From: Glaciihabitans sp. INWT7
Lineage (GTDB): Bacteria; Actinomycetota; Actinomycetes; Actinomycetales; Microbacteriaceae
Assembly: GCF_014217685.1 (NCBI RefSeq)
Contig: NZ_CP043653.1
Location: forward strand, 1,740,419 to 1,804,418
Length of the DNA: 64,000 nucleotides
Reading direction: 5' to 3'
The notes under the pieces were generated by a model. That model made no database searches. It worked only from the letters and a program-made list of their open reading frames with translations, and was not told where the DNA came from. Both the position numbers and the translations under genes were made by a program. Position 1 is the first letter of the stretch. Each line of letters begins with the position of its first letter. This document shows positions 15,822-22,358 of the stretch, piece after piece.

Positions 15822-17921
15822 TCAGACGTCGATGCGTTCGCGGGAGAGCCCGTCGGAGCCGGCGATGATGAAGTCCTTGCGCGGGGCCACATCGTTCCCC
15901 ATGAGCAACTCGAAGACGCGCTCGGCATTCGCCGCGTCGGTGATCTGCACTCGCCGGAGGGTGCGGTGGTGGCGGTCCATCGTGGTGGTCGCCAGCTGGT
16001 CGGCATCCATCTCGCCGAGTCCCTTGTAGCGCTGGATGGGATCCTGATAGCGCTTGTTGGACTTCTTGAGCCCCGCGAGCACACCGTTGAGTTCCTGCTC
16101 AGAGTAGGTGTAGATCGTCTCGTTCGGTTTGGTGCCGGGATTCATCACGATCACCCGGTGCAGCGGGGGAACCGCCGCGTACACTCGCCCGTCCCTGATC
16201 ATGTCGGGCATGTAGCGGAAGAACAGGGTGAGCAGCAGGGTGCGGATGTGGGCGCCGTCGACATCCGCGTCGCTCATGATGATCACCTTGCCGTACCGTG
16301 CAGTCGCGAGGTCGAAGCTTCGGCCGGATCCGGCTCCGATCACCTGGATGATCGAGGCGCATTCGGCATTCCCCAACATGTCGGAGACCGATGCCTTCTG
16401 CACGTTGAGGATCTTGCCGCGGATGGGCAGGAGGGCCTGATATTCGCTGTCCCGCGCGAGCTTCGCCGTGCCGAGCGCGGAGTCACCCTCCACGACGAAG
16501 AGCTCGCTGTTGGCGACATCCGAGCTGCGGCAGTCCACGAGCTTGGCAGGAAGGGACGAGTTCTCCAGTGCGTTCTTGCGGCGCTGGGTCTCCTTGTGCG
16601 CCCGTGCCGAGATGCGGGACTTCATCTCCGCGACGATCTTGTCGAGCACGAGAGCCGACTGGGTCTTGTCGTCGCGCTTGGGCGAACCGAATCTCTCGGC
16701 CATGGTCTTCGCCACGACGGCAGCCACGATGTTGCGCACGGCCGGAGTCCCGAGGATCTCCTTGGTCTGCCCCTCGAACTGCGGTTCTGGAAGCCGCACC
16801 GTCAAGACCGCGGTGAGCCCGGCGAGCACATCGTCTTTCTCGATCTTCTCCGTGCTGTTCGCCCCGGTTCCCACCTTGAGCCGCCGCGCGTTCTGCTCGA
16901 CCTGAGAGCGCAGGAACTTGAGCATCCCGGCCTCGAATCCGGCCTGGTGGGTGCCGCCCTTCGGTGTGGCGATGATATTCACGTAGCTGCGGAAGACCGT
17001 TTCATAACCCGTACCCCAGCGCAGCGCGATGTCGACCTCGCACTCGCGCTCGAGTTCTGTGGCGACCATGTGCCCCTTGTCGTCGAGCACGGGGACGGTC
17101 TCGCTGAAGGTGCCAGAGCCCGACATCCGCCAGGTCTCCGTGAGGGCGGTGTCGGGAGCGAGGAAGTCCACGTACTCGCCGATCCCGCCGTCGAAGCGGA
17201 AGACTTCGGTGCTCGGCTCTTCGCCGCGCTCGTCGGTGATGGAGATGCCGAGACCGCGAACGAGAAACGCGGTCTGGCGGGCGCGGGTCGAGAGCTCGTC
17301 GGTCTGGAAGGTCGTGCCCCGGCTGAAGATCTGCGGATCCGCCCAGTAGCGGATCCGGGTGCCGGTCACACCGCGGGCGACCTTGCCCACGACCCTCAAC
17401 TCGCTCTTGTTCTCGAACGGGGTGAATACGGCATCAGCCCTCGGGCCGTCCCCGGAGTCGGCGAAGATTCCCGGTTCTCCCCGGTGGAAGGACATCGCCC
17501 AGGTCTTGCCGTCGCGGTCGACTTCGACATCGAGTCGTTCCGACAGCGCATTGACGACGGATGCGCCAACGCCGTGCAGTCCCCCGGAGGCCGCATACGA
17601 TCCACTGCCGAACTTGCCGCCGGCGTGGAGTTTGGTGAAGACGACCTCGACGCCGGAGAGTCCGGTCTTCGGCTCGATATCGACCGGGATGCCGCGCGCG
17701 CGATCCCGCACCTCGACGCTGTTGTCCGAGTGGAGGATCACGCGGATCTCGTCGCCGTTTCCGCCGAGCGCTTCGTCGACGGAATTGTCGATGATCTCCC
17801 ACAGGCAGTGCATGAGCCCACGGGAGTCTGTGGATCCGATGTACATTCCTGGGCGCTTCCGCACGGCCTCGAGGCCCTCGAGCACTGAGAGGTGTCGTGC
17901 GGAATAGTCGGAACTCGCCAC
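15822..17921 (-). CDS. parE: DNA topoisomerase IV subunit B
   Basis: 699 residues. The GHKL ATPase domain has LWEIIDNSVDEALGG and GGLHGVGASVVNALS. The transducer domain has the QTKEILGTPAVRN region. The TOPRIM domain has LFVVEGDSALGTAKLARDSE and IIMSDADVDGAHIRTLLLTL with the metal Asp pair. It provides ATP-driven strand passage for the ParC–ParE enzyme. It converges on parC with 22 bp between the stops. The 223 bp upstream separate it from the divergent DUF7455 gene and hold the promoters for both. Confidence 0.95.
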   Translation of the reverse strand: MASSDYSARHLSVLEGLEAVRKRPGMYIGSTDSRGLMHCLWEIIDNSVDEALGGNGDEIRVILHSDNSVEVRDRARGIPVDIEPKTGLSGVEVVFTKLHAGGKFGSGSYAASGGLHGVGASVVNALSERLDVEVDRDGKTWAMSFHRGEPGIFADSGDGPRADAVFTPFENKSELRVVGKVARGVTGTRIRYWADPQIFSRGTTFQTDELSTRARQTAFLVRGLGISITDERGEEPSTEVFRFDGGIGEYVDFLAPDTALTETWRMSGSGTFSETVPVLDDKGHMVATELERECEVDIALRWGTGYETVFRSYVNIIATPKGGTHQAGFEAGMLKFLRSQVEQNARRLKVGTGANSTEKIEKDDVLAGLTAVLTVRLPEPQFEGQTKEILGTPAVRNIVAAVVAKTMAERFGSPKRDDKTQSALVLDKIVAEMKSRISARAHKETQRRKNALENSSLPAKLVDCRSSDVANSELFVVEGDSALGTAKLARDSEYQALLPIRGKILNVQKASVSDMLGNAECASIIQVIGAGSGRSFDLATARYGKVIIMSDADVDGAHIRTLLLTLFFRYMPDMIRDGRVYAAVPPLHRVIVMNPGTKPNETIYTYSEQELNGVLAGLKKSNKRYQDPIQRYKGLGEMDADQLATTTMDRHHRTLRRVQITDAANAERVFELLMGNDVAPRKDFIIAGSDGLSRERIDV

Positions 17922-18525: not shown

Positions 18526-19587
18526 TCACTCGAAGAAGCGGCGCAGGATACGCGGACTCAGTCGGGTCACGATCTCTTCGCCGATCGTGCCGAGCTCGTC
18601 TGCCCATTCCTGCAGCGTCGGCTCGCCGTCCGCTCCGCTGCCGAAGAGTACCGCGGTGCCCCCGGGTCGCACCAGCGCCTCCCCCGTATCGACCACGAGG
18701 CTGTCGATGTGAACCGCGACGATCTCGTGAAGGCGCCCGTCGATGGAGAGCTGCAGCACCCCGGCAGCTGCGCTCGGGATGCCGTCACCGAAGCCGATGC
18801 CGATTGTCGCGAGTCCATCACGCACGGCGATGACGGGGGCGGTCAGGGTCATCACGGGTTCGAGCCACAGCGATGAGGGCGTGATGCCGCCACCCGGTGA
18901 GATCCCGTAGGAGAACGCCCCGATCCGCACCAGATCGAACCGCGCATCCGCCCTCGCGAAGGCGGCTGCGCTCGCCGCGAGATGCCGCACGGCGAAGCGC
19001 GCACCGAGTTGCTCGGCCACGGCGACCGCCGCAGCGAACCGTGCGATAGCGATCGAGTCGTCGTCGTCCGAGGCCTCGGCGATGTGGGTCCAGGCTCCGA
19101 CGAGCTCGATGCGGTCGGACAGCTCGATCGCCCGCGCCACGAGCCCCGGCCACTCGTGGACGCTCGCGCCATTTCGGTGGAGGCCGGTGTCGATCTTGAG
19201 GTGGACCCGCGCTCGCAGGGAGGCGCCAGCACCCGCTATCGCCTCGAGCTGGCCGATCGTCGACACGCCGAGATCCAGTTCGGCCTCGATCGCCGCCGCG
19301 TAGTCCTCGTCTGGACCGAGCAGCCAGGTGAACACCGACACGTCGCGCGGGATGCCGTTCTCTCGCAGTACCAGTCCGGTCTCGATGTCGAGGGAGCCGA
19401 TCCATCCGAGCCCCGCCTCTACCGCGGCGCGCGCAACCGGCACGAGACCGTGGCCGTAGGCATCCGCCTTCACCACGGCCATGAGCGCGGCCGGTGCGAT
19501 CCGCTCGCCGAGCCGCGCGAGGTTGCGACGATAGGCGGAGAGATCAACCGTCGCCGTCGGCACTGTCGTCGGATCGGACGACACCAT
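18526..19587 (-). CDS. Alanine racemase-like protein, lysine half of a split active site
   Basis: 353 residues with a complete PLP barrel. The PLP lysine is present (AVVKADAYGHG, Lys40), as are the barrel motif VHLKIDTGLHRNG and the pyridine-contacting Arg (LVRIGAFSYG, Arg221). The C-terminal domain is altered. The catalytic tyrosine of the family motif GYADG is Phe here (IGIGFGDG, Phe266). The segment that normally reads GExVSYGxTWxA before it is absent. The usual GRxxMD motif has become VAVHID. In alanine racemases Lys and Tyr come from different subunits. This protein alone should therefore lack the tyrosine base, and the gene directly upstream supplies the missing part. Its ATG overlaps that gene's stop by one base (TGATG). 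It may be generically annotated as alr. Confidence 0.85.
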   Translation of the reverse strand: MVSSDPTTVPTATVDLSAYRRNLARLGERIAPAALMAVVKADAYGHGLVPVARAAVEAGLGWIGSLDIETGLVLRENGIPRDVSVFTWLLGPDEDYAAAIEAELDLGVSTIGQLEAIAGAGASLRARVHLKIDTGLHRNGASVHEWPGLVARAIELSDRIELVGAWTHIAEASDDDDSIAIARFAAAVAVAEQLGARFAVRHLAASAAAFARADARFDLVRIGAFSYGISPGGGITPSSLWLEPVMTLTAPVIAVRDGLATIGIGFGDGIPSAAAGVLQLSIDGRLHEIVAVHIDSLVVDTGEALVRPGGTAVLFGSGADGEPTLQEWADELGTIGEEIVTRLSPRILRRFFE

Positions 19588-20252
19588 CAGTACACCCGCG
19601 GCAAGTGACTGCCGAACACGGAGACGATCTCGGCGGAAGGTCGCCCGAGGCTGCCTGCCCAGTCCCAGACCGCCGGTTCGCCCGCGAGAGGGTCGCCGAA
19701 GACCACGGCTTCGTCGCCGATCGCGGCCCGGTCGGATCCGAGGTCGAGCACCAGGGCGTTCATGGCCACACGTCCCACGATGCGCCGTGCCGCTCCCTCG
19801 AGCAGGAGGGATCCCACATTGCTGGCGATGCGGTCGAGGCCGTCGGCATAGCCGATGCCGACCAATGCCAGGTTCGTGCGTGCACTCGCTGTCCAGGTGT
19901 AGCCATAGGAGACGCTCTCGCCGGCATCGATGGTCTTCGTGCCGACGACGAGCGCGCTCACCCGCATCGCCGCCCGCAGTTCGGGATCGGACGAGAGACC
20001 GTACAGCGCGACGCCGGCGGAGACGAAGTCGCCATGCACTCCCGACGACGCGGCGAAGTCGAGGTCTCGGATGAAGGCACCACCATCCAGCGCGGCGTCG
20101 GTCACCGCGGTGAGGCCGTGCCCGTAAGCATCCGCCCGCACGTCGGCCACCAGCACACGAGAACCGGCCCGGCGGGCGAGCACGGCGGCATTGTCACGGA
20201 TCGCCGAGAGGTCGATGCTCGCGCTGTGAATGCGTGAACCGGGCAGCGTCAT
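19587..20252 (-). CDS. Truncated alanine racemase-like protein, tyrosine half of a split active site
   Basis: 221 residues from the ATG at 20252. GTG at 20255 and TTG at 20273 are alternatives, and no site has a well-spaced Shine-Dalgarno. The first barrel strand is kept, but the PLP lysine is Arg (VADVRADAYGHG, Arg39). About 170 barrel residues are then missing, and the chain resumes near the last barrel unit (FVSAGVALYG), where the pyridine Arg is Ser. The C-terminal domain is intact and canonical: GESVSYGYTW, VGIGYADGLDR with the catalytic Tyr135, and VGRVAMNALVLDLG with Met164. It cannot form its own PLP site but can supply the tyrosine to a partner. It lies between the GatD-like gene (34 nt gap) and the second racemase (1-nt overlap). 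Uninterrupted reading and retained C-terminal motifs argue against a pseudogene. Confidence 0.82.
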   Translation of the reverse strand: MTLPGSRIHSASIDLSAIRDNAAVLARRAGSRVLVADVRADAYGHGLTAVTDAALDGGAFIRDLDFAASSGVHGDFVSAGVALYGLSSDPELRAAMRVSALVVGTKTIDAGESVSYGYTWTASARTNLALVGIGYADGLDRIASNVGSLLLEGAARRIVGRVAMNALVLDLGSDRAAIGDEAVVFGDPLAGEPAVWDWAGSLGRPSAEIVSVFGSHLPRVY

Positions 20253-20286: not shown

Positions 20287-21024
20287 CTAGATCCTCGAGA
20301 ATACGTGCTTCGCGTGGGAGATGATCACTTCTCGGGCCCGCGTGGCGTAGAGCTCGAGGCTCTCGTTCCCCGCGGAGGAGTTCGTGGGCAGTCCACGGCG
20401 CTCTGCGACGAAGGCGATGATCGCGTCGGTGAGAAGGGGGTTGAGGGGCAGCACAGGGCCGCCGACCTGGGTGCCGATCGCGCTGCCGTCGAGAAGTCCC
20501 TCGACCGATCCCTCACCGTTGCCCGTTCCCGCCTCGAGGATCCCAAATGGCTTGGCGCCGGCATCCAGCGTCCACCGCGACGCGTTGTCTTCGAAGCCGA
20601 CGACCTGGCCGAACGGTGAATTGACGATGACATAGCCGACCGAGCGGCTCGCGACACGCGTCGCTCTCAGCGGGAGGATGCCGAGCCCCTCCAGCGAACT
20701 GCCGTCGAGCAACGAGATCGAGTGACCGAGAAGCTCCGCACCGGAGCCGTAGGCGAAGATCGGCACTCCGCTCTCGCGGAGCGCCCGGAGCCGGTCGGCG
20801 TTGGCCAGCAGGTCGGCGTGGATGTTCCGCATCGCCGAGAGCGGACCGTTGCCCACGACGACGAGATCGACGTCCGTCGGCAGTACGGATCCCACTTCGT
20901 GCGCGACGACGGTGACCGAATGTCCGGCGTGCTCGAGTCGCTTTGTCAATGCCATGACATTGCCGCGATCTCCGGCGACGCCGAGCTCATCCGGGTAGAG
21001 CTGCACGATTGTCAGGGCACTCAT
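20287..21024 (-). CDS. GatD-like class I glutamine amidotransferase protein with lost catalytic residues
   Basis: 245 residues, collinear with GatD of the MurT–GatD lipid II amidotransferase: N-terminal IVQLYPDELGVAGDRGNVMA, LEGLGILPLRATR and VGFEDNASRWTLD. Where GatD has the nucleophile in ICGGYQFLG, this protein reads YGSGAELLG, so Cys is Gly93. Where GatD has YLHGPILP with the catalytic His, it reads QVGGPVLP, so His is Gly188. The Arg of the glutamine-site loop (ENHGGR in GatD, EDNASR here) is kept. It should therefore be unable to release ammonia from glutamine. It overlaps the MurT-like gene by 4 bp, as expected for a complex. It is probably a structural partner or a pocket for another nucleophile. 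Confidence 0.85.
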   Translation of the reverse strand: MSALTIVQLYPDELGVAGDRGNVMALTKRLEHAGHSVTVVAHEVGSVLPTDVDLVVVGNGPLSAMRNIHADLLANADRLRALRESGVPIFAYGSGAELLGHSISLLDGSSLEGLGILPLRATRVASRSVGYVIVNSPFGQVVGFEDNASRWTLDAGAKPFGILEAGTGNGEGSVEGLLDGSAIGTQVGGPVLPLNPLLTDAIIAFVAERRGLPTNSSAGNESLELYATRAREVIISHAKHVFSRI

Positions 21025-22358
21025 CGCTGGTTCTCCAGTTCGAGGAAACCGATCTGCTTGCGCGCGAGCATCATGATCTCGTAGTTCACGATCCAAGTCT
21101 TCAACCCGGTGGACGGTCGGGGCATGGCGCGCATGATGTCGATCGCCTTCTTCAGGTCGGGTTCGACCACCCCGATGGTGATCCCCTCGTGTTCGAGGCG
21201 CAGCGCGATCTGCCAGGCCTTTGCCCCGGTGATGACATCCACGTGATCGAGAGCGGCGAAGTCGATGTCGTAGATCCAGGAGATGTCGGGCGTGCCCTCA
21301 TCGATGGCCAGAAGCACCTGCTCCGGCGGCTCCGGAAGGGCATCGAGGTTGAGCTGCAGGCTCGCCGCATTCTTGAACATCACGAACTCGACCTGCTCGT
21401 TCACGCCATCGCGGTTGGTGAAGTCGAGCAACTCACCACGCCCGTAGGCCGGCTTCATCGCGGCGAACGCTGCGGCCGAGGATGCCCCGTCGAAGCGTTC
21501 CCCGAGGATGACCGCCGCCGTTGCCAGCGCCGCTGCGGCATCGATGGCGTAGTGGAGCCCCTTCGCGGGCAGGGTCACCTCGACGCTGGTGCCATCGACG
21601 ATGATCGAGGCGCCGGCGCGGTCGGTGGCCACCAACTCTGCAAGGGCTCGATGCGATTCGGCCTGCACCGCCTGGTCGCGATAGTCCTTCGCATTGAACA
21701 GGCCATGAGGGGCACGCGCGATGACGTCCGCGGACGCTCCGAAGTAGGTGATGTCGGGCTCGGTCGTCGCATCGCCGTCGACGTACCGGCGCGCGATCTT
21801 CGACAGGTACGGGTCTTCGCGATTCGTCACGATGTGCGACCCCGCCTGCTGGGCGGTGTCCAGCATCATGTCGGCGACGCGCTCGGTCTCGTAAAAACGA
21901 TAGAGCTGGTCCACCTGCGTGTTCAGCACGAGCACCGTCGAGGGCGGCACGACCGCCGCGAACTCGAGCGCGAAGGCCTCATCGACCTCCAACACGCCGA
22001 TGTCGGCATCCACCCGTCCGAGCACGCTCGACTCCGCAAGGATCGACGACGCGATTCCCTGCGGCAGGTTCGCGCCGGAGGGATTCGTGAACACGGTGAG
22101 TCCGTGGCCGCGCAGCACCTCCGTCAGCATGTGGGTGGTCGTGGACTTGCCGTTGCTGCCCAAAACATAGACGATGCCGTAGCGGAACTGGCCCGTGACA
22201 TCCCGCAGGAAATGCGGTGCCAGCCTCGTGGTGACGTATCCGGGGAAAGCGGACCCACCGCCACGCAACTTCGCGAGGGCGCGCACCGCCTTACCCGCCA
22301 CTACGGGGAAGAAGTACCTGAGGCCACGGAGGCCGCCTGTTTTCTGCTCGCTCACCAC
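21021..22358 (-). CDS. MurT-like Mur ligase (DUF1727 C-terminal domain)
   Basis: 445 residues. The Mur-ligase ATP site is intact (VLGSNGKSTTTHML, residues 66-79), as are VLEVDEAFALEF and the DUF1727 C-terminal part with DISWIYDIDFAALDHVDVIT, which in MurT contacts GatD. MurT of Staphylococcus carries a four-Cys zinc ribbon after the DDPF..R region; this protein has the matching REDPYLSKIARR but no cysteine anywhere. MurT activates the alpha-carboxyl of D-Glu in lipid II as an acyl phosphate. With a dead GatD partner the acceptor is probably not ammonia. It starts with GTG at 22358 (or 22355), 5 nt after the sigA stop. Confidence 0.87.
   Translation of the reverse strand: MVSEQKTGGLRGLRYFFPVVAGKAVRALAKLRGGGSAFPGYVTTRLAPHFLRDVTGQFRYGIVYVLGSNGKSTTTHMLTEVLRGHGLTVFTNPSGANLPQGIASSILAESSVLGRVDADIGVLEVDEAFALEFAAVVPPSTVLVLNTQVDQLYRFYETERVADMMLDTAQQAGSHIVTNREDPYLSKIARRYVDGDATTEPDITYFGASADVIARAPHGLFNAKDYRDQAVQAESHRALAELVATDRAGASIIVDGTSVEVTLPAKGLHYAIDAAAALATAAVILGERFDGASSAAAFAAMKPAYGRGELLDFTNRDGVNEQVEFVMFKNAASLQLNLDALPEPPEQVLLAIDEGTPDISWIYDIDFAALDHVDVITGAKAWQIALRLEHEGITIGVVEPDLKKAIDIMRAMPRPSTGLKTWIVNYEIMMLARKQIGFLELENQR

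Follow-up and report, generated by a model that had tools for sequence, protein, structure and literature searches.

The locus described here raises the question of whether two neighbouring genes that both resemble alanine racemase (Alr), each lacking what the other keeps, encode the two halves of one active site. The window, by which we mean the whole stretch of 64,000 nucleotides of Glaciihabitans sp. INWT7 that was analysed, carries on its minus strand a short gene (A) and, downstream of it, a longer gene (B), both with open frames. A sequence-only reading had claimed that the two genes hold opposite active-site halves, and this was borne out at the locus itself and in 97 split pairs.

The two genes of the window

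Table 1. Features of the locus, in positions of the window.
Feature	Position	Strand	Remarks
Gene B (long, 353 aa)	18526..19587	-	TIGEE, with Glu where Alr has Tyr354
Gene A (short, 221 aa)	19587..20252	-	First barrel part without PLP Lys, then complete Alr C-terminal domain
A/B stop-start overlap, one base	19585..19589	-	TGA of A and ATG of B share base 19587
GatD-like protein, directly upstream of A	20287..21024	-	Start codon chosen by judgement
MurT-like Mur ligase	21021..22358	-	ATP motif GSNGKSTT and MurT_C domain
parE/gyrB-like gene	15822..17921	-	Neighbour of split pairs (68/70 loci)

Alr, of PLP fold type III (TIGR00492; PF01168 plus PF00842), resembles the A/B pair in its fold, in the PLP residues of the barrel, in a site shared across the subunit interface and in sequence. 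The difference lies in the number of sites: the Alr homodimer has two complete ones, whereas the halves of a single site appear to be divided between A and B, with the remaining site seemingly dead. In structures described in PMC3485190 and PMC3245724 Tyr265, Tyr284, Arg290, Arg309 and Met312 serve the partner's site and Tyr354 the protein's own; Arg309 is printed unprimed at one place in the latter.

All of the residue differences that had been read from the two window proteins are present. B has Lys40 (VVKADAYGHG), VHLKIDTGLHRNG and Arg221, reads Phe266 within IGIGFGDG, carries VAVHID and has no hairpin, while A has Arg39 (DVRADAYGHG) and Ser at the position of the pyridine Arg, together with GESVSYG, Tyr135 and GRVAMN. 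The change of the pyridine Arg to Ser is not general among split A. The large barrel deletion reported for A is real, but by Pfam it amounts to about 150 residues and not 170, with A matching Ala_racemase_N at positions 1-65 of 220 and then Ala_racemase_C over 127 of 127. The one-base overlap of the two open frames, also as had been read, suggests that their translation may be coupled. Against the TIGR00492 alr equivalog (cut-off 168 bits) B scores 182.8, above the cut-off, and A 119.9, below it, and both match the sequences of Alr crystal structures. Single-chain AlphaFold2 models reach a pLDDT of 94.3 (B) and 90.3 (A). The best PDB match of each is an Alr, with a TM score by query length of 0.95 and an rmsd of 1.9 A for B, and of 0.85 and 4.8 A for A.

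Split and complete pairs across the family

A profile of B (A1) searched at 1e-60 gave a match in 293 of the 299 family genomes, many of these matches being plain Alr. The DNA was read at the best match in 100 genomes, at 40 more regions in 38 genomes and at the window locus; G087, G031 and G177 were also covered, and the remaining 157 of the 299 genomes lie outside the loci read. The first set (the 100 genomes and the window) contains tandem pairs throughout except at four loci, with A first and both genes on the same strand, and in three of its genomes a single canonical Alr stands at the best match (L116, L119 and L122), while at the fourth locus B runs into a contig end (L057). The 98 pairs of this set comprise 70 split pairs and 28 complete pairs, in which each gene has both halves; two of the 98, L134 and L130, suffered from alignment or trimming faults and were classed by hand. 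One genome (G225, locus L087) has two different split pairs, whose starts are about 5 kb apart. The second set contributed 15 split and four complete pairs as well as a B that lies where a contig stops (L274), and otherwise held single Alr-type genes. Among the best 80 matches of a scan of named genomes there were at least 12 further split pairs, found in Agreia, Leifsonia, Microbacterium, Gulosibacter and a Rhodoluna MAG, and at least nine complete pairs, found in Curtobacterium and Subtercola. Split pairs span 27 coded genera of the first set and also g85, a coded genus whose best match is a named Microbacterium. The counts leave out L139, L145, L166 and L172 as already counted, the nine named complete pairs, the complete pairs of G087, G246 and G031 (L016, L022 and L036) and L026, where a contig end truncates B.

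Among the 97 split and 32 complete pairs read we found no mixed pair. Homologues with the short gene lost and the long one kept, which had been named as evidence against the heterodimer, were not encountered in the loci read: where B stands without A (L057 and L274), or A beside a shortened B (L026), the locus lies at a contig end. Single Alr matches at 1e-50 occur in 14 of the 99 genomes of g85, which is compatible with loss of the pair but is no proof of it. An order-wide search of 198 genomes, some of them from this family, gave 16 with a match at 1e-110, and apart from the window's own B none of these 16 is as short as a split B would be; the split B of g85 also miss this threshold, which leaves the result weak.

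Positions were given Alr numbers by motif, and residues were counted in 99 split B, 97 split A and the 32 complete pairs. Lys39, Tyr43, Lys129, Arg136, His166, Ser204 and Arg219 are kept by every split B (99/99), while the hairpin Tyr is present in none of the 99, Met312 in one and Arg309 in one. Split A keep the hairpin Tyr (VSYG) and Met312 in 97 of 97, Arg309 in 92 and Tyr265 in 84, the other 13 having Phe; position 313 is Asp in 84 and Asn in 13. In the column of the PLP lysine (39) 69 split A have other residues, 27 have gaps and one has a K, which belongs to an over-long reading frame (L134) and which we judge to be a misalignment; an alignable PLP lysine was found in none of the 97. It is only in A and B taken together that the catalytic Tyr265, Met312, the hairpin and the PLP lysine are all present. 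The 32 complete B have all of the listed residues, except for Lys129 (21/32). A check for fixed and co-occurring losses across Microbacteriaceae had been proposed; the losses are reciprocal in every one of the split pairs read.

The strongest sequence argument for a single shared site comes from within the C-terminal domain, where position 354 and the residues that serve the partner's site have opposite fates. Position 354 is acidic in all 99 split B (Asp in 52, Glu in 47) and is mostly Ala, Leu, Val or Pro in split A, with Glu in six and Asp in one. An exception to this division is the partial retention in B of Asp313, a partner-site position that is still Asp in 65 of the 99. Position 265 drifts in split B, being Tyr in 31, Phe in 22, Ser in 18 and other residues in the rest. 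With Tyr in 31 of the 99, the sister genome G237 among them, Phe266 was ruled out as the key feature that it had been taken for.

Several variants were seen within both kinds of pair. The split A with Phe at the catalytic Tyr are those of L040, L043, L058, L067, L135, L136, L279, L280, L287, L288, L291, L146 and L184, and of six main-set pairs with Phe in A, four also have Phe in B. The split A of L090, L095, L097, L099, L112, L126, L128 and L137 match the Alr profile over nearly its full length yet have no PLP lysine, and are possible intermediates of the split. In the complete pairs of genus g35 (L084, L086, L088, L091, L093 and L094; six of six surveyed genomes) the first gene has Phe265 and occupies the canonical alr place, and B keeps Tyr; Phe265 in these first genes would make sense if pairing of A with B was already there.

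In three genomes, G243 and G283 of genus g84 and G234 of genus g74, a single open frame runs through A and B, which show the reciprocal losses here too and would presumably be made as an A-B fusion. Of 94 pairs, split and complete together, 82 have a possible start that gives a 4-base overlap of A and B, and four more have one with a 1-base overlap. Compared with G237, the dN/dS ratio is 0.12 for A and 0.15 for B, and over eight within-genus comparisons, some with dS above 1, it ranges from 0.10 to 0.41. Chance or decay is an unlikely source of a pattern that recurs in 97 pairs with ratios of 0.12 and 0.15. A sequencing artefact was ruled out by the same structure in 97 pairs, and a pseudogene by dN/dS.

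Trees of the two parts of the protein differ on the history of the split. In a tree of the barrel (100 rows) B falls into two groups, each mixing split and complete members, and an AU test rejects a single clade of split B (p 0.008). In the tree of the C-terminal domain the split B come together, perhaps through long branches, and a single group with weak support (88), placed on the side of Alr, holds the split A. Taken together the trees make two splits possible, or one split and a gene replacement.

Substrate, neighbouring genes and the cell wall

To define residues that set B apart we scanned for columns that are acidic in more than 90% of the 131 B and in less than 30% of canonical Alr and complete A. 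Only two columns emerged: 169, where Asn becomes Asp or Glu (130/131), and 354, where Tyr becomes Asp or Glu (131/131). Tyr354 is found in 26 of 27 canonical Alr rows, two of which are repeats (L032/L234 and L033/L235). Position 354 is a published entryway residue of Alr, and 169, three residues past His166, may lie near the entryway. The combinations at 169/354 in B are Glu/Glu (58), Asp/Asp (62), Glu/Asp (10) and Gly/Asp (1), and two newly acidic columns indicate a basic substrate. Beside the equivalent of Arg136, where lysine-preferring and broad-specificity racemases have Asn, window B reads HRNG; RNG is found in the canonical Alr of the family as well.

Known enzymes offer a partial parallel. 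The lysine-preferring and broad-specificity racemases (Lyr and Bar; PDB 4dza and 4dyj) have the Alr fold, act on basic amino acids and, like B, have no Tyr354; they carry Thr or Ala there and no acid (PMC3485190), where B has Asp or Glu. They are homodimers. Charged residues at 354 reduced Ala racemisation in another Alr (PMC4517790), an effect that would fit a changed substrate, but would equally fit a poor enzyme. From the residues of B, the racemase pair probably acts on a basic diamino acid, Orn or Dab, and for the Glu/Glu pair of the window Orn is predicted.

The walls of Curtobacterium, where B is Glu/Glu, presumably contain D-Orn, and those of Leifsonia and Pseudoclavibacter, where B is Asp/Asp, we take to contain Dab. 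Taxonomic papers give further walls: in Agreia (B Glu/Glu) l-DAB is connected to d-Orn and in Subtercola (B Asp/Asp) the wall has DAB (PMC5945732), while in the clade of M. testaceum, itself Glu/Glu, D-Orn is reported for three of four species and L-Lys for M. enclense (PMC10757982). Rhodoluna lacicola yielded a d-Ala-d-Dab peptide (PMC4156110), and B of the Rhodoluna MAG has Asp at 354 and Gly at 169. The Asp/Asp of Gulosibacter is uninformative, since its walls are described with DAB or D-Orn (PMC6113628). The published walls fit Glu/Glu with D-Orn and Asp/Asp with Dab, but the choice of Glu or Asp tracks the two clades into which B falls in the barrel tree, and the match is therefore worth about one independent contrast. 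It is plausible, and we lean slightly towards it, that the D-product is the bridging diamino acid of type B peptidoglycan in Microbacteriaceae.

First-set loci extend 2.5 kb either side of the pair. Besides the presumed parE neighbour (Table 1), the 70 split-pair loci have MurT in 48 and tsaE in none; complete-pair loci have glmS and tsaE in 28 of 28, and parE and MurT in none. A canonical alr lies between glmS and tsaE in all 20 split-pair genomes checked, so that D-Ala has another source there. The window genome contains two other complete Alr, L001 and L002, by which the pair was ruled out as the cell's only Alr. L002 (1877741-1881379) is a complete Alr-like gene that reads GTIAHEI, with His at position 354, and its neighbour is presumably a D-Ala-D-Ala ligase.

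The genes upstream of A recall the MurT/GatD lipid II amidotransferase in being neighbours in many loci and in the ATP motif and C-terminal domain of MurT. The GatD-like proteins differ from the GatD of that enzyme in their Cys, which is absent from 91 of 101 aligned rows (some genomes repeat); seven rows are cut before it and three have it (L241-L243). Where GatD of S. aureus has its catalytic residues, which we take to be Cys94 and His189, the window protein has Gly in both cases and would be expected to have no glutaminase activity. The MurT-like ligase is its probable partner, and a GatD without Cys suggests that the MurT/GatD reaction may have changed. MurT with a Cys-less GatD also occurs in genomes without a found pair, and is therefore not specific to the racemase. 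In type B walls the bridge is attached via the alpha-carboxyl of D-Glu, which makes a MurT that uses an amino acid in place of ammonia a natural guess, though an unproven one. A Gly-d-Glu peptide is called characteristic in PMC4156110.

A probable shared site and the alternatives to it

The explanation that we favour takes A and B as the subunits of a single PLP-dependent racemase with the Alr fold, an obligate heterodimer. In it B would provide the barrel, with PLP, Lys39, Tyr43, Lys129, Arg136, His166, Ser204, Arg219 and the acid at 354, and A would provide, across the interface, the catalytic Tyr265' together with the hairpin, Arg309' and Met312'. The other site, composed of the missing barrel of A and the decayed C-terminal domain of B, would be dead, leaving exactly one working site per dimer. 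Its substrate would be a basic diamino acid (Orn or Dab), the D-form of which would go to the type B peptidoglycan bridge. The analysis itself shows the residue patterns, the co-occurrence of the two genes, the open frames that they share, their gene context and the folds of the single-chain models; complex, activity, substrate and cell-wall role are what we infer from these. The obligate heterodimer with one complete site, as first predicted from the window, is likely given the reciprocal losses in 97 of 97 pairs, the lack of any mixed pair among those seen, the single open frame in three genomes and the fate of position 354. Against it stand the split A with Phe for the catalytic Tyr (13/97) and the B that retain Asp313 (65/99) or Tyr265 (31/99).

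These same retentions in B are what would be expected if a B homodimer were a racemase by itself and A a regulatory or stabilising paralogue, like the prozyme of trypanosomes. Activating paralogues that are catalytically dead are known (PMC5201418 and PMC3663545). In trypanosomatid AdoMetDC/prozyme and deoxyhypusine synthase the active enzyme requires such a paralogue, but these systems are reported to work by relief of autoinhibition or by allosteric activation and not through reciprocal halves of a PLP site. With the hairpin gone from all 99 B and Met312 from 98, parts that in Alr the partner supplies and that A retains exactly, we consider action of B alone quite improbable. The missing parts of B could also come from the cell's canonical Alr, which has them and with which the folds are common, so that A, B or both would complement Alr (B barrel with Alr C-terminal domain) and not each other. 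The prospects of this arrangement are very slight, as A and B are adjacent in every complete locus read, mostly overlapping and in three genomes in one frame, and their losses are reciprocal to one another. Large deletions and lost motifs could mark the pair as a decaying duplicate undergoing pseudogenisation, an account made scarcely credible by the dN/dS ratios of the eight within-genus comparisons and by 97 pairs in which the frames are open and the residues fixed.

A different kind of doubt attaches to the substrate. A true A-B heterodimer might act on Ala or Ser, or carry out another PLP reaction, with the link to the cell wall being wrong; the heterodimer part of this reading overlaps with the explanation that we favour. 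Window B does score above the alr equivalog cut-off, and the substrate call depends on just a pair of acidic positions and on a match with cell walls that is confounded. Tyr354, nearly constant in canonical Alr, is nevertheless replaced by Asp or Glu in every B, and each of the 20 genomes checked has a separate canonical alr, so that we regard an Ala or Ser substrate, or another reaction, as rather unlikely. Taking the heterodimer acting on Orn or Dab as a whole, we can tentatively combine the parts: a split one-site racemase would make the D-Orn or D-Dab of type B walls, Glu/Glu or Asp/Asp at 169/354 would set Orn versus Dab, the neighbouring MurT and a glutaminase-dead GatD would add an amino acid and not ammonia to the alpha-carboxyl of D-Glu, and the reciprocal split, starting from a tandem duplication of alr, would have happened two or more times. 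All of this together is a possibility that we hold with less than even confidence.

In all 97 split pairs read, two genes inherited together each keep the half of a site that the other has lost, a principle like that of serine palmitoyltransferase. There the LCB1 subunit has no PLP lysine, and the enzyme is of fold type I with other chemistry, unlike A and B. LCB1/LCB2 is a PLP heterodimer (PMC3794620). Among the open-licence PMC papers listed, judged by title or abstract start, we found no such pair under heterodimeric, split or tandem Alr, type B MurT/GatD, Microbacteriaceae racemase, peptidoglycan or MurT, or Orn/Dab racemase. With window B above the equivalog cut-off, annotation will probably describe pairs of this kind as one alanine racemase and a fragment.

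If the heterodimer is true, the symmetric two-site homodimer of the Alr fold has been turned into an obligate heterodimer with one site. Because there are living relatives with complete tandem genes, others with a full-length barrel without Lys and others again with a single frame for A and B, the path by which paralogues come to depend on each other could be tested step by step. For Microbacteriaceae the pair would be a candidate route to a marker on which taxonomy has long relied, the D-ornithine or D-diaminobutyrate in walls of type B.
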